Of a stretch of 64,000 nucleotides of DNA, positions 13,174 through 51,340 are shown piece by piece. The DNA comes from Nitrospirota bacterium. GTDB lineage: Bacteria > Nitrospirota > Thermodesulfovibrionia > Thermodesulfovibrionales > UBA6898. Every line of letters begins with the position of its first letter. Within the stretch, counting starts at the first letter, position 1. The translations under genes and the position numbers were made by a program. Where the stretch lies: the NCBI GenBank assembly GCA_016215155.1, contig JACRLQ010000012.1, forward strand, positions 1 to 64,000, written 5' to 3'. The notes beneath the pieces are model-generated. The model was not told the DNA's origin. It was given only the letters and a program-made list of their open reading frames with translations, and ran no database searches.

Positions 13174-14769
13174 CTATCGCGATGGAAACCATCCCTTCAA
13201 AGAGGTCCCGCCGGTTGTCTTTTCATTGCCGCCGGTAACGACAATATAGGCGCCGGACAGACCCGTCCGGATGTTTTTTCCAAAGGTGATCGGCGGTGTC
13301 AGACCGGTTTCGAACCCTCTGAGGCCCTCGAGTGTCTCGATAAAACGCTCCCTGCTCAAATCCCTGCCTGAGCGGCGGAGCACTTCCTCAAGGACCTTTA
13401 CTGCCGCATACGCGGACAGTTTCGCAAGCTGATTGGCCTCAGGCGCCCCGGACGCGAAGGCCTCTTTGGAGCGCCTGTCCTTGCCGCTCTCGCGGACTTC
13501 TCCGGGGATAGCGGGATACGCAAGATATGTCGTGTTTCTTAAGCGCGGCGGGATCGCGCCGATGCCAGTCCCTGTAAGTATGCCCGACAGAAGGACAAGT
13601 GGAGGCGGGTCCGCCTCTGAAATGACGCCCATCAGCGCTGTTACCTCTGTCGGGCTTCCCAGATGCACAATCAGGCGGACCTGGTTTTTCCTGAGATGAC
13701 CAAGCGCCTCCGCGGCATCAAATGCGCCCTTTCTATATTCGAGCGTAAGAATTTTTTTCCATCCGAGGTCCCTGTAGCGTCCGGCAACGGCGCCTGCAAT
13801 GCCGACCGCCTCTTTCTGTGAGGGATAGAGCAGGGCGATCCCCGGGTCGACGAGCCCGAGCTCTTTTTGGGAAAAAGACGCAAGGGCCAGCAGCTGGTCT
13901 TTCAGCCCCGGAAATAGATAGAAGCCGTATCGGCCCATCAACAGGTCATCAGGCGGGTTCAGTGTAAGCGGACCGATCAGTGGCGTACGCGCGGTTTCGA
14001 CGGCGGCGGACAATTCGCGGTCGGACTCCGGGGTGTATGTGCCGATCAGGCAGAAAAGTTCGTCTCTGTCGAGTATATCCATGATTGCTTTACGGTGAGA
14101 GAGCCTGTCGGACGGAAGCTTTTCGACGGAAAGTTCAAGCCTTCTGTTATATATACCTCCCCTGCCATTGATGTCATCGATGTAGGCGCGCAGGGACCTT
14201 TCGATGATTTCCCCGGGAGACCCCGGAGGTGAGTCGGATGGTAAAATCGTGCCGACCCTGATGACTCGTCCGTCTACCCCCGGACCTTCGGATGTTCCAA
14301 GGACCGAAAGATACGCGATCAGGGCGTCCATGTCTTTATCAGACATATCATATACCGGCATGGCGGGGTCTCCGCGCTTGCCGCCAGGATATATACCATC
14401 CCTGAGGTAACTCCTAAGAGACTCCTTCGTGAAGGCAGGGTGTACCGTCCCGTCCGGGTGTATGTGGCCGCCGGACTTCATCAGGTATTTCCAGGTTATA
14501 TTAGTAGGCTCGATCCCGCTTTCGGGCCGGCCCTTTCCGTCATATCCGTGACAACCGGCGCAGGCCGCGCCCTGTCCCTGAATTTCGATAAGTCCCCTCC
14601 CGAAATAGCCGGTAATAGCCGGGCCGGAGGGTGAGGCCCCGAAGAAATAGATCTTTCGCCCCTCATTTTCCAAAGGGGACCCGGCCGCGGCTGAAACTGT
14701 AACAGGGGAGATGGCCGCCAAAAAAGCGAAAGTAATAAGGAAGTGTATTGAAGGGGACTTTAGCGTCAT
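13174..14769 (-). CDS. cytochrome c / periplasmic ligand-binding protein fusion
   Basis: About 531 residues from the ATG at 14769. A longer frame begins at 14835, but 14769 starts a clean signal peptide (IHFLITFAFLAAISPVTVSAA). The N-terminal part is a mono-haem class I cytochrome c: CAGCH near residue 70 of this start, and a probable distal Met in GDPAMPVYDMSD. From about residue 170 onward the protein is a type 1 periplasmic binding domain like LivJ/branched-chain amino-acid receptors (RVGTILPSDSPPG... AYIDDINGRGGIYNRRLEL). The fusion suggests ligand-dependent or ligand-delivering electron transfer in the periplasm, or a sensor; no ABC transporter genes are adjacent. It converges with the multicopper oxidase operon, so a functional link is possible but unproven. 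Confidence 0.9.
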   Translation of the reverse strand: MTLKSPSIHFLITFAFLAAISPVTVSAAAGSPLENEGRKIYFFGASPSGPAITGYFGRGLIEIQGQGAACAGCHGYDGKGRPESGIEPTNITWKYLMKSGGHIHPDGTVHPAFTKESLRSYLRDGIYPGGKRGDPAMPVYDMSDKDMDALIAYLSVLGTSEGPGVDGRVIRVGTILPSDSPPGSPGEIIERSLRAYIDDINGRGGIYNRRLELSVEKLPSDRLSHRKAIMDILDRDELFCLIGTYTPESDRELSAAVETARTPLIGPLTLNPPDDLLMGRYGFYLFPGLKDQLLALASFSQKELGLVDPGIALLYPSQKEAVGIAGAVAGRYRDLGWKKILTLEYRKGAFDAAEALGHLRKNQVRLIVHLGSPTEVTALMGVISEADPPPLVLLSGILTGTGIGAIPPRLRNTTYLAYPAIPGEVRESGKDRRSKEAFASGAPEANQLAKLSAYAAVKVLEEVLRRSGRDLSRERFIETLEGLRGFETGLTPPITFGKNIRTGLSGAYIVVTGGNEKTTGGTSLKGWFPSR

Positions 14770-14776
14770 CGTAAAC

Positions 14777-14782
14777 ATTATA
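14777..14782 (-). promoter_or_regulatory. -10 box giving a leaderless start
   Basis: TATAAT on the minus strand, exactly seven bases before the ATG at 14769, with no Shine-Dalgarno sequence. Transcription would start at or next to the start codon. The same arrangement recurs at four other genes in the window. Confidence 0.5.
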
Positions 14783-14865
14783 ACAGGGTGTCGAACGAAA
14801 ACAGCGTAAATGTCGTTTATGCTAAACTTATCCATCTGACAGACCGGACCGGACAGGAGGTTGCC

Positions 14866-25452: not shown

Positions 25453-25574
25453 TATACTGCAATTTATAAAGAAAAATGATAATGGACTTTTTTAGGCTCT
25501 TATAATATATTAATTGCATCTGAATTCGCGCCGGGGGGCCAAAGGTGCCCTTCGGATGTTTACTGGAGGCCGGT

Positions 25575-26906
25575 ATGAGAAGAGTTTTACTGTTTTTATT
25601 GTTTCTGTCCGCTGTCGTTATCTTTGGCGTCTCAACTTTCGGTATGGAGACCGCGGCACAACAGTCGTCTGACGACACCTGTATAACCGACAAGTGTCAT
25701 GCGTCGATGGGTAAGGCCAAATTCGTCCACGGACCGGTCGCAGTCGGCGAATGCCTGTCATGTCATGAAAGAAAGGCGAAACACAGTTTTCAGCCTATCA
25801 CCAATGTCGGGGAACTATGCTATAGATGTCACGACAGGGTCGACTCGAAAAAGGGCGTCCATAAACCGGTCAAGGACGGCAGCTGCACGAAATGTCATGA
25901 TCCGCATCAGTCTCCGTTTAAATTTCAGCTGAGGGCTGAAGGCACGAACCTCTGTTTCCTGTGTCACAACAAGAAACTTGCGGATGGCAAATTCGTCCAT
26001 GGTCCGGTCGCCGTCGGGGGTTGTTCCATGTGCCACAACCCCCATCAGACCGACTTCCCCAAAATGCTCAACGCCAGGGGCAACGATGTCTGCTTTCAGT
26101 GTCATACGGACAAGGCCGAGGCCTTTAAGGGGAAGAAGTTCGTGCATAACCCGGTGCAGGACAACTGTATAAATTGTCACAGCCCTCACGCGGGCGAATA
26201 TAAATTTAATTTCTCTTCTGAAGGAAGTATGGACCTCTGTTTCAACTGTCATTCCGACAAGAAAGAATGGATCGCCGCGGTCAAGGTGAAGCATGGCGGA
26301 CTTGAAACGGACAGGAAGTGTCTTGCCTGCCACGACCCGCATGTCTCGGATTTTCCCAAACAGCTCGTGAAGCAGCCGGTTGACACCTGTATGTTATGCC
26401 ATAACAAGCCTCTTGACACCCCTGAGGGCAAGATAGTCGACATGAAAGAGTACCTCTCAAAAAACAAGGAACACCATGGGCCCATTCTTCAGGGTGACTG
26501 CTCGTCCTGCCATAACACGCACGGCTCCGATAATTTCAGGATTCTCCGGAAATATTACCCGCCGCTTTTTTACGCGCCCTTCGACCCGAAAAATTATGAA
26601 CTCTGTTTCAATTGCCACGAAAGGACCCTGGTGCAGGACGCAAAAACCACGACCCTGACCGGGTTCAGAAACGGCGACCAGAACCTGCATTTCGTACATG
26701 TGAACAAACAGGTCAAGGGACGCACCTGCAGGGCCTGTCACGATGCCCACGCGACCAATAATCCGAAACACATAAGGAATGCGGTGCCTTTCGGGGCCTG
26801 GGGCCTGCCGGTGGGGTTCCAGCAGTCGGCCAACGGCGGCGCCTGCCTGCCCGGCTGTCACCAAAAGTTTGAATATGACAGAATCAAGGGCGTAAAAAAC
26901 AGGTGA
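25575..26906 (+). CDS. multihaem cytochrome c (13 CXXCH plus 2 variant motifs)
   Basis: 443 residues from ATG 25575, chosen because CTGGAGG lies upstream and the signal peptide begins there (VLLFLLFLSAVVIFGVSTFG). I count 13 CXXCH motifs (CLSCH, CYRCH, CTKCH, CFLCH, CSMCH, CFQCH, CINCH, CFNCH, CLACH, CMLCH, CSSCH, CFNCH, CRACH) plus CITDKCH (CX4CH) near the N-terminus and CLPGCH (CX3CH) near the C-terminus, so up to 15 haems. The motifs come in repeated units containing FVHGPVAVGxC and CHxPH, the doubled CXXCH pattern of cytochrome c3-like respiratory and extracellular cytochromes. It is exported, and probably transfers electrons across the periplasm or to the outside. First gene of a four-gene operon. 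Confidence 0.93.
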   Translation: MRRVLLFLLFLSAVVIFGVSTFGMETAAQQSSDDTCITDKCHASMGKAKFVHGPVAVGECLSCHERKAKHSFQPITNVGELCYRCHDRVDSKKGVHKPVKDGSCTKCHDPHQSPFKFQLRAEGTNLCFLCHNKKLADGKFVHGPVAVGGCSMCHNPHQTDFPKMLNARGNDVCFQCHTDKAEAFKGKKFVHNPVQDNCINCHSPHAGEYKFNFSSEGSMDLCFNCHSDKKEWIAAVKVKHGGLETDRKCLACHDPHVSDFPKQLVKQPVDTCMLCHNKPLDTPEGKIVDMKEYLSKNKEHHGPILQGDCSSCHNTHGSDNFRILRKYYPPLFYAPFDPKNYELCFNCHERTLVQDAKTTTLTGFRNGDQNLHFVHVNKQVKGRTCRACHDAHATNNPKHIRNAVPFGAWGLPVGFQQSANGGACLPGCHQKFEYDRIKGVKNR

Positions 26907-27472
26907 GCGGACTGATCCCGCGTTTCCCATGCGCCAGACCTTTGTCCTTCCGAAAGTCCCGGGACGGCGCGGTAACGCTGGTGTTTTTCACGTCGCTGAT
27001 TGTTATTTTTTTCGTGTACGCGCAGGCCTTTGCCGGGGCGCCCGAGAGGGAGAAAGCCGCCCAGCTATTAAAGTCGGCGGCTAAATTCAACGGTGAGGGA
27101 GAGACCGACCGTGCTATTGCCGCGGTGGAAGAGGCGATAATTCTGACCCCCGACCAGGCCGAAGCGCGTGAGCAACTGGGGACGCTATTGTTAAAGAAGA
27201 AACTCTTCGACGACGCCTCAAGGGCCTTCAATGAGGCGCTAAAGATCAATCCAAATATGAGGTCCGCCAAGACAGGGATCGGACTCGCCCTCATCGGCAA
27301 GGGAGATCTTGCGGGGGCCGAGGCCGCGTTGAAGAATGCCCTCACGCTGAACCCTTATCCGGCAATGACCCACTACGCTCTCGGACTCTTATACCAGAAA
27401 ATGAACAATGATGAAAAAGCGTTGTTACACTTCAAGGAAGGTCTGAGGACATATAAGGAAGGAAAAAAGTGA
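26903..27472 (+). CDS. membrane-anchored TPR protein
   Basis: 189 residues; the GTG start overlaps the cytochrome stop by four bases. An N-terminal hydrophobic segment (VTLVFFTSLIVIFFVYAQAFA) acts as signal or anchor, then about four tetratricopeptide repeats (for example ARAxxxxxEA.. AFNEALKINPNMRSAKTGIGLALIGKGDLAGAEAALKNALTLNP). TPRs bind proteins. Tight coupling to two multihaem cytochromes suggests a scaffold or assembly role for them in the periplasm (inference). Confidence 0.88.
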   Translation: MSGLIPRFPCARPLSFRKSRDGAVTLVFFTSLIVIFFVYAQAFAGAPEREKAAQLLKSAAKFNGEGETDRAIAAVEEAIILTPDQAEAREQLGTLLLKKKLFDDASRAFNEALKINPNMRSAKTGIGLALIGKGDLAGAEAALKNALTLNPYPAMTHYALGLLYQKMNNDEKALLHFKEGLRTYKEGKK

Positions 27473-28587
27473 AGACAACAGGTATACTCGGCGGATTTTA
27501 TAAAAAGGCGACTCTGGCGCTTCTGACTTCCCTGATTTTTCTCATAATATCCGGGGCCTATACCTCCGGGGCCTCGGCCCTGCTTCAAACCGGGAGTCAG
27601 GCTCCTGATTTCGCGCTCAGGGACCTCGACGGCAAAGAAGTCGCCCTGTCGCACTACTCGCAGCAGAAGGCGGTGGTGATTTTTTTCTGGGCCACCTGGA
27701 GCGCCAATTCACCGAAGGCGCTTAAACGGTTCGAAAACTTCAGGAAGAAATATAAAGACAGGGGCATAGAAATAATAGCGGTCAACGCCGATAATCAGGC
27801 AGTCTCCTCCGGTGACGTAGAAAAGATAAGAGACCTGGTAAAAAGCGCAGGGGTGACCTTCCCCGTCCTCATCGACAGAGGGCTCCAGACCTTTCGTGAC
27901 TATGAGGTCATTGCGCTGCCTTCAACAGTTGTGGTAGTCGAGGGCAAAATATCATATGTGCTGCCGGGGTTTCCGCTTGTCGCAACTGAAGAGCTCTTCG
28001 ACTACCTTTCGACCCTTGCCGGCGATAAACCCGTCAGCAAAACGGACGGGGGATATAAACCCAAACATGACGCGATAGCGGATGCCAATCTTGCGAAAGG
28101 GTTTGTCAGGAAAGAGAAGTTTGCCTTGGCGTACCCCCTGTACAAAAAGGCCATAGAAAAAGACCCAAAGTATATGCTCCCTTACGTCGAACTCTCCAGG
28201 CTCTATTGTCTGGAGGGAAGGCTTCAGGATGCGGAGGAGACCCTCCGAGGCGCCCTCAAGGTCGAGCCCGAACACCCGGCGGTCGTCAGTGAACTCGGCA
28301 ATGTGCTCATAAAGGAAAAAAAGATCAAAGAGGCCATTGAACTTCTGGCCAAGGTGGTCAAAGAAGAGTCTTATACACCCGCCGTTTATTATTACGCATA
28401 CGCCCTGTCCCAGGACGGACTTCTGGGGGAGGCTTTTGCGGTTTTTGAAAAAGCCATCCGGCTGAATCCCTTTGATCCGGCAATTTATAAATTGCGCGGT
28501 GAGGTCCTTGAAAATAACAGGATGACAAAGGAAGCCATAGCCGATTATAAGAAATCGCTTGAGCTTCTTATGAAATACAGGGACTGA
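27469..28587 (+). CDS. TlpA-like thioredoxin-fold protein without active-site cysteines, fused to TPRs
   Basis: 372 residues; the GTG start overlaps the previous stop by four bases. After a signal segment (ALLTSLIFLIISGAYTSGASA) comes a TlpA/AhpC-type domain (QAPDFALRDLDGKEVALSHY... IVIALPSTVVV-like cis-Pro loop). The redox motif WCxxC is replaced by WSANS in FFWATWSANSP, so it cannot do thiol-disulfide exchange in the usual way. Residues about 195-370 are four or five TPRs. A structural or chaperone role for the cytochromes of the same operon is plausible; loss of catalysis is read directly from the sequence. Confidence 0.9.
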   Translation: MKTTGILGGFYKKATLALLTSLIFLIISGAYTSGASALLQTGSQAPDFALRDLDGKEVALSHYSQQKAVVIFFWATWSANSPKALKRFENFRKKYKDRGIEIIAVNADNQAVSSGDVEKIRDLVKSAGVTFPVLIDRGLQTFRDYEVIALPSTVVVVEGKISYVLPGFPLVATEELFDYLSTLAGDKPVSKTDGGYKPKHDAIADANLAKGFVRKEKFALAYPLYKKAIEKDPKYMLPYVELSRLYCLEGRLQDAEETLRGALKVEPEHPAVVSELGNVLIKEKKIKEAIELLAKVVKEESYTPAVYYYAYALSQDGLLGEAFAVFEKAIRLNPFDPAIYKLRGEVLENNRMTKEAIADYKKSLELLMKYRD

Positions 28588-28588
28588 T

Positions 28589-29611
28589 TTGTCCAAAAGA
28601 CCTCGATTATTTCCGTCCGGACCCCTCATTTTGGCGCTTGTTATGATTGTTATATTTTCCCGGATCCAGTCCGCCGACTCCGCGGTGATGTCCGTAATTC
28701 AGCCCAGAAACAACAGTGTGATAACCGGCAGATTTCTGACCCTTTCGCTCAGGATAACCGACCCGGGAATCGACACTCTGACCGTCTCTTCGGGCAAGTC
28801 GGGCCGGGCACAGGTATTGCCCGTGCCGAAGGGAAAAGAGACCTTCTGCAAGGTCCTGCCGGTGAATTTTCGCGCCAATGAGATCGAGGTGACCGCGTCC
28901 AGGTCCGGGAAGATAGTTGATACCGCGAAAATAGCGGTCTCCTACAGGTCCGATATTTCTAACCGCTCAGGCCCCACGGGGGCTGAATTCACCTGGAAGC
29001 CGTTTCATGTTGAAGAAAGAGAGGCCGCCTGCGGCGGATGCCACAGGATGAACGTCACCGCCGGTGACCTGTTACCTAAAACCCCCGGGGACTCGATGTG
29101 CTATCCCTGTCATAAAAAAATTACTGACAACAAATCCGTTCACGGACCCTCAGCCCGGTGGGAGTGTCTCAGATGCCACGAGAAGGATTCCAAACCCAGC
29201 AGATTTGTCATCACGAATACCGAGGCCGACCTATGCTTTTCCTGTCATACAGGGGAAAAGGTCCTGTGGGCGAAAAAAAAATATATGCACGGACCGGCTG
29301 CGACCGGAAAATGCTCGATATGTCATGATCCTCACGCATCGCCGAGCCGTTATACCCTCAAACTACCGGTCAGGCAACTCTGCCTCTCCTGCCATGAAAA
29401 TGTCCTGAACGACTTCAAAAAACACTCTTTTAAGGTCTTCGCATCCGTCGCGGAGGAACATCCCATTCGGGGTGTCAGGGACCCCAAGAACCCTGGTGAA
29501 AAAATTACCTGTGCCAGTTGCCACAATCCGCACGCATCCGTAACGCCGGCCATGCTCGCCTACGAGGGTGGGAGCATTTATAATTTCTGCAACCAGTGCC
29601 ATAAAAAATAG
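28589..29611 (+). CDS. octahaem cytochrome c with N-terminal Ig-like domain
   Basis: 340 residues from a TTG one base after the previous stop. Signal peptide (LILALVMIVIFSRIQSADS), then about 100 residues of beta-sandwich (PRNNSVITGRFLTLSLRITDPGIDTL...), then eight CXXCH motifs (CGGCH, CYPCH, CLRCH, CFSCH, CSICH, CLSCH, CASCH, CNQCH) with CHDPHAS-type doublets like those of the first gene. It is exported and probably forms an electron chain with the larger cytochrome. No catalytic CXXCK motif is seen, so it is not recognisably NrfA or Otr. Confidence 0.92.
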   Translation: MSKRPRLFPSGPLILALVMIVIFSRIQSADSAVMSVIQPRNNSVITGRFLTLSLRITDPGIDTLTVSSGKSGRAQVLPVPKGKETFCKVLPVNFRANEIEVTASRSGKIVDTAKIAVSYRSDISNRSGPTGAEFTWKPFHVEEREAACGGCHRMNVTAGDLLPKTPGDSMCYPCHKKITDNKSVHGPSARWECLRCHEKDSKPSRFVITNTEADLCFSCHTGEKVLWAKKKYMHGPAATGKCSICHDPHASPSRYTLKLPVRQLCLSCHENVLNDFKKHSFKVFASVAEEHPIRGVRDPKNPGEKITCASCHNPHASVTPAMLAYEGGSIYNFCNQCHKK

Positions 29612-29772: not shown

Positions 29773-29973
29773 ATGGCAAATGGAAAAGTAAAGTGGTTCA
29801 ATGAAGCAAAAGGATTCGGCTTTATCACAAGCGAAGACGGAAGCGACGTATTTGTACACTATTCATCCATCCAGAGCAACGGGTTTAAATCCCTTGCCGA
29901 AGGCGACGCGGTCAGTTTTGATACTGAAAAGGGACCGAAAGGTCCTAAGGCAGTGAATGTAGTGAAGATCTGA
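29773..29973 (+). CDS. CspA-family cold-shock protein
   Basis: 66 residues, the usual length for a single cold-shock domain. RNP1 is KGFGFIT and RNP2 is VFVHYSSI; the N-terminus [16 protein letters not shown] is diagnostic. It binds single-stranded RNA/DNA and melts secondary structure. AAGGAGG lies upstream of the ATG and a strong terminator follows. Confidence 0.97.
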
Positions 29974-29986
29974 TTGGGGTATGAGC

Positions 29987-30020
29987 GCCCCCCTGCTAAG
30001 CGGCAGGGGGGCTTTTTTTT
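29987..30020 (+). terminator. rho-independent terminator of the cold-shock gene
   Basis: GCCCCCCTGC (29987-29996) pairs with GCAGGGGGGC (30003-30012), loop of six, then eight Ts (30013-30020). Confidence 0.92.
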
Positions 30021-30125: not shown

Positions 30126-31271
30126 ATGGCAGAACTGAAATTCAGAAATGATCTGATCGGCGGCAGTGCCGGCATCCCCGGCGGCCCGCCACGGGAGTGT
30201 TGCCCCGGGAGCGCAGGGAAAAAACCTGACTTTGTTATCGGGACGATTATGACCGCCTCAGGTCCTGTCGAAAAAGTCTCCACCAGGCTTTCCTCGTCCG
30301 ATTATCTGGGGCATATCAGGTGCCGGACGACCGCCTTCAGAAACAATTATACTATACCCCCAGGGATATACGCTGCGGGACAACCCGGTGAAGATTCCGA
30401 TATACTCGTCAGTTCCAATTACAAACTCAGCTTCGACGCGCTCAGAAAGGAACTGGAAGGGTTAAATGTCTGGATCCTTGTCCTCGATACACGCGGAATA
30501 AACGTATGGTGCGCCGCCGGGAAGGGCACCTTCGGGACGGAAGAATTGCTCAGGCGGATATCTTCGACCGGCATTGAACATATCGTCAGCCACAGAAGGC
30601 TCATCGTTCCTCAGCTCGGGGCCCCCGGAGTAAGCGCCTATAAGGTGAAAAGGGCCTCCGGTTTCACGGTATGTTTCGGTCCCGTGCGGGCGAGGGACCT
30701 GAAAGAATTCATAGCCCGGGGGTACAGGGCAACGGATATGATGAGAACCGTGAGTTTTCCGATATATGACAGGCTCGTGCTGACCCCCATGGAGATTGTG
30801 CCGGCGATGAAGAACTATCCTGTGTATGTCCTGATCGTGCTTGTCATATCAGGCCTTCATCCCGATGGCATACTCTTCAGGGACGCCATCGCGGGGGGAA
30901 TACCGCTTCTGCTTCTGGGACTTGTGGCGATACTGGCGGGGGCCTTCATAACGCCTCTTTTGCTTCCGTATATCCCTTCCCGGTCATTTGCAGTCAAGGG
31001 ATGGATAGCCGGGATATTCTTTGTTTTCCCGCTGGTCCGGTTCACCTGGCCTGACGGCGGACAGGACCCGATTCTTCTGGGCTTTTCGTGTCTTTTTTTC
31101 CCCATGGTGAGTTCTTACGTTGCGCTTCAGTTTACAGGGTCCACCACATTTACCGGAATGTCGGGCGTGAAGAAGGAATTGAGGACAGCCGTGCCGGTCT
31201 ATATTGTCTCTGGTGTAATATCCCTGGTTTTGCTCATTATCCATAAGATCGCCGGATGGGGTCCACTTTGA
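30126..31271 (+). CDS. hgcA: HgcA, corrinoid protein of mercury methylation
   Basis: 381 residues. The family-defining cap-helix motif is present intact as NVWCAAGK (126-133); C129 corresponds to the corrinoid-ligating Cys93 of Pseudodesulfovibrio mercurii HgcA. The soluble corrinoid-binding domain spans about 1-225, followed by five hydrophobic segments (about 232-251, 258-281, 289-307, 315-335, 355-373) that anchor it in the inner membrane. HgcA transfers a methyl group from the corrinoid to Hg(II), giving methylmercury. The N-terminus carries an unusual CC pair (25-26, PPRECCPGS). hgcB overlaps its 3' end. The preceding cold-shock gene is separated by a terminator, so hgcAB form their own unit. 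No arsR-type regulator gene is adjacent. Confidence 0.95.
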   Translation: MAELKFRNDLIGGSAGIPGGPPRECCPGSAGKKPDFVIGTIMTASGPVEKVSTRLSSSDYLGHIRCRTTAFRNNYTIPPGIYAAGQPGEDSDILVSSNYKLSFDALRKELEGLNVWILVLDTRGINVWCAAGKGTFGTEELLRRISSTGIEHIVSHRRLIVPQLGAPGVSAYKVKRASGFTVCFGPVRARDLKEFIARGYRATDMMRTVSFPIYDRLVLTPMEIVPAMKNYPVYVLIVLVISGLHPDGILFRDAIAGGIPLLLLGLVAILAGAFITPLLLPYIPSRSFAVKGWIAGIFFVFPLVRFTWPDGGQDPILLGFSCLFFPMVSSYVALQFTGSTTFTGMSGVKKELRTAVPVYIVSGVISLVLLIIHKIAGWGPL

Positions 31272-31564
31272 AATATCTCACGGGAGTTTCAAGCCTCGTC
31301 CTCGATCCGGAGAAATGCACGGGTTGCGGGGTATGTATGACGGTATGTCCGCATAAGGTCTTTACGCGTATGGAAAAGAAGGTGACGGTCACCGACAGGG
31401 ACCTGTGTATGGAATGCAGCGCGTGCGTCAATAATTGCGCCTTCGGCGCGCTTACCGTCGACAGGGGTGTCGGGTGCGCGGCAGCGTTAATAAACAGCAT
31501 GATTAACGGCGGAGAGCCCTCCTGCGACTGCAGCGGCGGTCCCGACAAAGCCTCCTGCTGCTGA
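31256..31564 (+). CDS. hgcB: HgcB, ferredoxin of mercury methylation
   Basis: 102 residues with two [4Fe-4S] motifs: C21, C24, C27, C31 and C51, C54, C57, C61. The second reads CMECSACVNNC, close to the HgcB signature CMECGAC with Ser for Gly. The extra conserved Cys (C74, in GVGCAAALIN) and the terminal Cys pair (C101-C102) that distinguish HgcB from ordinary ferredoxins are present; C90 and C92 are additional. HgcB reduces the corrinoid of HgcA and is thought to hand over Hg(II). ATG 31256 lies 16 bases inside hgcA; a TTG at 31268 overlapping the hgcA stop is an alternative start. Confidence 0.94.
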   Translation: MGSTLKYLTGVSSLVLDPEKCTGCGVCMTVCPHKVFTRMEKKVTVTDRDLCMECSACVNNCAFGALTVDRGVGCAAALINSMINGGEPSCDCSGGPDKASCC

Positions 31565-50572: not shown

Positions 50573-51340
50573 ATGGCTTATGTTATAGCTTTGGCAGGGA
50601 AGGGCGGGACAGGGAAGACCAGCATCGCGTCACTCACGGTTAAATATATTATGGAAAAGAGGAAGAAGCCGGTGCTTGCGGTCGATGCGGACAGCAACTC
50701 CTGCCTGAACGAGGCGCTCGGGGTCCCGATCCACGCCACGATCGGCGGGCTCAGGGAGGACGCCCTTGAGAAGATCCGGGGCGGCGGGGACAGGCCCGGC
50801 GGCATGTCGATGGAACAGCTCTTTGACTATCAAGTCTCCCAGTCGGTCATCGAGGCAAAGGGTTTTGACCTGATGGTGATGGGCAGGCCCGAGGGGCCGG
50901 GCTGCTACTGCGCCGCCAATAATATCATCCGCAAATATACGGACAAGCTTTCGGAAACCTATGACTATGTCGTGATCGACAACGAGGCCGGGATGGAGCA
51001 CCTGAGCCGCCGGACCACGCATAAGGTCGATCTTCTTTTGATAGTGAGCGACCCTTCCGTCAGGGGGGTCAAGACCGCCGAGCGCATACAGAACCTGGTG
51101 AAGGAACTGAACCTCGATGTCGCGGCCAATGCGATCATCATAAACCGCGTTTCGGATAAGGACGGAGCGGAACTCAAAAAATACGCCGAAGGACTCGGGC
51201 TTACGGTTGCGGCGATGATCCCACAGGACCAGAATATCTTCGATTATGACCTGCAGGGCAGGGCGATCTGCGAGCTTCCGTCCGATTCCCCCGCTGTTGC
51301 CGGACTGTTCGGTCTTCTCGATTCGTACAATATACCCTGA
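50573..51340 (+). CDS. cooC: CooC-type ATPase for nickel insertion into CO dehydrogenase
   Basis: 255 residues, MinD/ArsA-like P-loop ATPase. Deviant Walker A GKGGTGKT (9-16); the CXC metal site is C111 and C113 in GPGCYCAANN; VVIDNEAGMEHLSR is the switch/Walker B region. CooC (and AcsF) dimers bind Ni(II) between the CXC motifs and help load CO dehydrogenase/acetyl-CoA synthase. No CODH gene lies in the window, so the target is elsewhere. Its presence suggests a Wood-Ljungdahl or CO metabolism, which would also supply methyl-corrinoid chemistry related to HgcA (inference). Confidence 0.92.
   Translation: MAYVIALAGKGGTGKTSIASLTVKYIMEKRKKPVLAVDADSNSCLNEALGVPIHATIGGLREDALEKIRGGGDRPGGMSMEQLFDYQVSQSVIEAKGFDLMVMGRPEGPGCYCAANNIIRKYTDKLSETYDYVVIDNEAGMEHLSRRTTHKVDLLLIVSDPSVRGVKTAERIQNLVKELNLDVAANAIIINRVSDKDGAELKKYAEGLGLTVAAMIPQDQNIFDYDLQGRAICELPSDSPAVAGLFGLLDSYNIP

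Follow-up and report, generated by a model that had tools for sequence, protein, structure and literature searches.

An intact hgcAB gene pair in an uncultured Nitrospirota bacterium, a probable mercury methylator

Two adjoining genes for the mercury methylation proteins HgcA and HgcB were identified in the window, the whole analysed stretch of 64,000 nt (contig JACRLQ010000012.1, positions 1 to 64,000, assembly GCA_016215155.1). Very probably they form a bona fide hgcAB operon of an uncultured sulfur-cycling Nitrospirota bacterium, which would act by the methylmercury mechanism of its homologues. Judged from its sequence, the host is a probable mercury methylator. Gene identity, intact frames, key residues, predicted fold and gene overlap were established here; cofactor, methyl donor and product are inferred from other organisms. 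The hgcAB annotation is correct and of an ordinary kind, hgcA of Nitrospirae having been published since at least 2020.

Identity of the gene pair

The pair and the unit flanking it upstream consist of the following features:

29773 to 29973, + strand: cold-shock protein gene (PF00313, 104 bits), a separate unit upstream of hgcAB
29987 to 30012, + strand: probable intrinsic terminator of the cold-shock gene, with a run of T after a stem of 11 pairs
30126 to 31271, + strand: hgcA, mercury methylation corrinoid protein of 381 aa, match to NF040863
31256 to 31564, + strand: hgcB, dicluster ferredoxin of 102 aa, match to NF040864, overlapping hgcA by 16 nt

An earlier note on this DNA had claimed a complete hgcA-hgcB pair, and both ORFs were found where it placed them, with intact frames. 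In the HMM search with the curated NCBIfam equivalog profiles, both proteins exceeded the cut-off. HgcA scored 404.8 bits with NF040863 (cut-off 275; profile positions 1-324 of 325 aligned) and HgcB 115.1 bits with NF040864 (cut-off 99). The chosen start of HgcA is supported by the N-terminus MAELKFR, which is common to its relatives.

The corrinoid-ligating Cys named in the note was confirmed in the translated ORF as C129. It lies within NVWCAAGK, a form of the motif N(V/I)WCA(A/G)GK with the Co-ligating Cys. In the alignment with 29 relatives this motif and its neighbouring residues were invariant. Across 104 HgcA sequences, 81 columns are conserved to at least 90%. HgcA of the window deviates at two of them, with S97 for A and I150 for L, both conservative; two deviations are also the median of the 104 sequences. 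In HgcB all described features were found: two CxxCxxCxxxC motifs for [4Fe-4S] clusters, C74 in GVGC and a C-terminal CC. The residues equivalent to C73, C94 and C95 of Pseudodesulfovibrio mercurii, namely C74, C101 and C102, are thus all present. The overlap of hgcB with the end of hgcA is repeated in many relatives.

The AlphaFold model of HgcA, built with 29 relatives, reached a mean pLDDT of 85.7. It combines a corrinoid-type domain with five helical segments of membrane length (213-243, kinked; 251-278; 288-307; 315-336; 348-377). Hence, the five C-terminal membrane segments of the earlier note are borne out as a prediction. The best PDB match with Foldseek was 9a0b_A, the published HgcAB model (E 6e-18); the other matches were large subunits of the corrinoid iron-sulfur protein (CFeSP). 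With a sequence-only search of the PDB set, the relatives found for HgcA were CFeSP subunits, and the corrinoid domain alone aligned. The CFeSP large subunit (CdhE/AcsC, PF03599; 2h9a, 4djd) is alike in the fold of this domain over about 120 residues, with 23-27% identity (Foldseek). Unlike HgcA, it has no Co-ligating Cys and no membrane domain, and it belongs to CODH/ACS.

In the corrinoid-domain tree, HgcA of the window stands among the HgcA rows, apart from the CFeSP gamma subunit of the same genome and from HgcAB-like fusions. HgcA-type rows are split from fusion and variant rows with an SH-aLRT of 88 and from CFeSP with 100. As this outgroup tree has 130 columns, long branches that meet and weak inner HgcA forks, only its coarse split is trusted. 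A position outside the HgcA clade, which the earlier note had named as evidence against its reading, was not found.

Equivalog scores, Cys motif and five predicted transmembrane segments are shared with the HgcA of mercury methylators such as P. mercurii ND132. Likewise, HgcB resembles the ND132-type protein in its two [4Fe-4S] motifs, the third Cys, the terminal CC and the position of its gene, which adjoins and overlaps hgcA. Other hgcAB pairs of Nitrospirota (Candidatus Magnetominusculus xianensis, Nitrospirae MAGs) match the same family profile, with HgcA identities of about 44-60%, and lie in a different genomic neighbourhood. The HgcAB-like fusion family (NF043039) has a related corrinoid domain and a ferredoxin, but fused into one chain. 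Assignment to this family was rejected, with 188.4 bits for HgcA and 57.8 bits for HgcB against a cut-off of 285 and with two separate ORFs.

Several variants were observed in other genomes. Within the same order, NVWCSAGK replaces NVWCAAGK in an HgcA of 407.8 bits (L047/L006, G310), and HgcAB-like fused chains of corrinoid domain, membrane part and ferredoxin occur in three genomes (L051, G190; L053, G270; L050, G254), the last of which also carries a normal HgcA. A divergent full-length HgcA-like protein of 344 aa with NVWCSAGK (L052, G154:C1, a genome of 6 Mb) scored 159 bits, below the cut-off; 37 of the 81 conserved columns are changed, and it is a possible HgcA paralogue. G084 (completeness 74%, contamination 5%) has two HgcA genes above the cut-off (L048, L049), which lie on separate contigs and occupy separate places in the HgcA tree.

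Proposed function and alternative explanations

For HgcAB of P. mercurii, cobalamin with Cys thiolate ligation and mercury as methyl acceptor are described; its HgcB needs C73, C94 and C95 and has two [4Fe-4S] clusters, the proposed electron source for reaching Co(I) (PMC11588087). By homology, the corrinoid would be bound by the cytosolic domain of HgcA, where Cys129 would be the lower ligand of Co. The corrinoid would receive electrons through both [4Fe-4S] clusters of HgcB and be reduced to Co(I). The Co(I) corrinoid would then be methylated, possibly by SAM, which served as methyl donor for P. mercurii HgcAB in vitro (PMC11588087). The acceptor of the methyl group would be Hg(II), which C74 and the terminal CC of HgcB probably deliver, and methylmercury would be formed at the membrane. 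Not every isolate with hgcAB clearly methylates; eight of nine tested methanogens with hgcAB were above the controls (PMC5893877).

The reading as genuine HgcAB of a probable methylator is supported by the profile scores, the predicted structure, the trees and the conserved residues, and three other explanations were weighed against it. A CdhD/CFeSP-type subunit of the Wood-Ljungdahl pathway next to an ordinary ferredoxin would account for the match of PF03599 (CdhD) to the corrinoid domain above its cut-off and for the fold that HgcA and CFeSP have in common. The probability of this explanation is negligible. NF003195 (CFeSP gamma) gives HgcA 64.5 bits against a cut-off of 306, and a separate CFeSP large subunit (PF03599, 329 bits) was found on contig C20 of the same genome, which reads SVLTAWAAGK at the motif, without the Cys. 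Together with the predicted membrane helices and the tree split, this upholds the distinction from CdhD-type proteins drawn in the earlier note. It is also quite improbable that the pair is a decaying or silent, degenerate copy. The end branch of HgcA (0.56-0.66, against a median of 0.35-0.39) and the missing adjacent HgcC or ArsR point in this direction; the intact frames, the number of deviating conserved columns, which equals the median, and a GC and GC3 like those of the neighbouring genes argue against it.

More weight, although we still consider it unlikely, is given to a real HgcAB homologue with another native role. Here the corrinoid methyl transfer would serve a thiophilic metal or metalloid or one-carbon metabolism, and mercury methylation would be a side reaction. 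The literature has not settled on a native role for hgcAB (PMC10349881). The putative regulator HgcC occurs upstream of arsM in relatives without hgcA, and arsR and permease genes lie near several hgcAB loci; both observations are pointers to metal(loid) stress in general. On the other side, every residue known as required for mercury methylation is retained, and no feature of the window indicates another substrate. The reading as an hgcAB operon for mercury methylation is preferred.

Host genome, neighbourhood and descent

The host is an uncultured sulfur-cycling Nitrospirota bacterium, present as a Thermodesulfovibrionia-like MAG of 3.43 Mb (completeness 100, contamination 1.81); no 16S gene was found in its assembly. 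Profile searches detected dsrA and aprA above the cut-off, and the genome also encodes a CODH/ACS corrinoid protein. The nearest named relatives of HgcA are mostly Nitrospirae MAGs, two of them labelled Thermodesulfovibrionales, an order within Thermodesulfovibrionia (Nitrospirota). HgcA above the cut-off occurs in 55 of 396 genomes sampled from the phylum, patchy but common, and in 11 of 20 further genomes of the host's own family. No match to the MerB profile was found in the host genome; the control was likewise empty. The best MerA candidate scored 373.5 bits against a cut-off of 454; hence, it was regarded as a related flavoprotein and not called MerA.

Upstream of hgcA, the terminator at 29987 to 30012 probably separates the cold-shock gene from hgcAB. 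Since the consensus scan gave overall no more sites than shuffled sequence, this candidate rests on the strength of its single hairpin. No obvious sigma-70-like promoter was seen between it and hgcA. Downstream of hgcB, a gap of 185 nt is followed by a gene for a PAS hybrid histidine kinase. Upstream of the cold-shock gene, at 25545-29611, cytochromes with 13 and 8 haems in paired CXXCH motifs flank a TPR protein and an AhpC/thioredoxin-TPR protein; the four genes adjoin or overlap and probably form one operon. The "many cytochromes" of the earlier note hold in the form of these two multihaem proteins. Its CooC (50573-51340) is backed only as a CbiA/MinD-type P-loop NTPase; the CooC identity found no NCBIfam match at 1e-20. 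A predicted fusion of a c-type cytochrome domain (PF00034, weak) and a periplasmic binding protein domain (PF13458, strong) is encoded at 13174-14835 on the - strand. Across 83 hgcA loci, hgcA and hgcB are the only genes of the window found at a consistent position; thus, the upstream cytochromes and the downstream histidine kinase are probably unrelated to hgcAB. Rfam features were absent from the window.

Within the genus, HgcA of the window is 56-57% identical to its counterparts, no higher than to other families; for IleRS the identity is 80-83%. The HgcA trees do not join the genus. Constraining the four genus HgcAs to one clade cost 30.9 log-likelihood units with a p-AU of 0.09, so a single clade is not rejected. 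It is possible that hgcAB was acquired more than once in this genus.

The regulator HgcC and the place of the pair among Nitrospirota

HgcC (NF040962, AbrB-like, cut-off 70 bits) is named for its position beside hgcAB. A regulator upstream of hgcAB was recorded before (PMC7438021, 112 genomes), as was an AbrB/PrlF-like gene (PMC10349881). Unlike ND132, with arsR beside hgcAB, and many relatives with hgcC, the pair of the window has neither gene beside it, and its host belongs to a different phylum from ND132. No HgcC was found in the whole host genome as assembled, where the best score was 29.1 bits. HgcC lies directly upstream of hgcAB in two of three genus-mates bearing hgcA; in the third (G186), ArsR-like and permease-like genes lie about 2.4-2.8 kb upstream.

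Among Nitrospirota, HgcC was detected in 35 genomes, 23 with HgcA above the cut-off and one (G242) with an incomplete HgcA at the end of a contig. In seven of the remaining 11, an ArsM-like gene is next downstream (L193, G304; L194, G012; L195, G021; L196, G030; L198, G053; L199, G068; L201, G178), and in an eighth (L200, G107) the next gene encodes another SAM methyltransferase. Five of the seven ArsM-like proteins were run against NF008823 (cut-off 263), and four exceeded it; that of G068, read from an internal start, scored 201 over 168 residues. The calls for G021 and G030 rest on close similarity to the scored proteins. In the HgcC tree (72 columns), hgcAB-linked and arsM-linked HgcC are not cleanly separated. 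A search of open-licence papers found no description of the HgcC-arsM arrangement. These loci suggest HgcC as a common regulator of metal(loid) methylation. Tentatively, and with considerable doubt, the genus may have acquired hgcAB repeatedly by horizontal transfer, the copy of the window working without HgcC or ArsR; HgcC itself may regulate genes for metal(loid) methylation in general, be they hgcAB or arsM, and not be specific for mercury.

Contigs, isolate genomes and transcripts of Nitrospirae with hgcA were reported before (PMC7438021, PMC7573106), and in one sediment sample set the phylum accounted for as much as 20% of the hgcA population (PMC7573106). According to PMC7573106, methylation tests had been made on none of the sequenced Nitrospirae that carry hgcA, and the literature searched contained no such test for Nitrospirota. 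The earlier view of a little studied lineage thus applies to methylation itself; hgcA was already documented in metagenomes and transcripts. To the hgcAB genes known from uncultured Nitrospirota, the window adds a further complete pair; the phylum is a contributor to environmental hgcA pools. The occurrence of HgcC with hgcAB in some genomes and with arsM in others, and its absence here, offers a testable idea on how methylmercury formation may be controlled.
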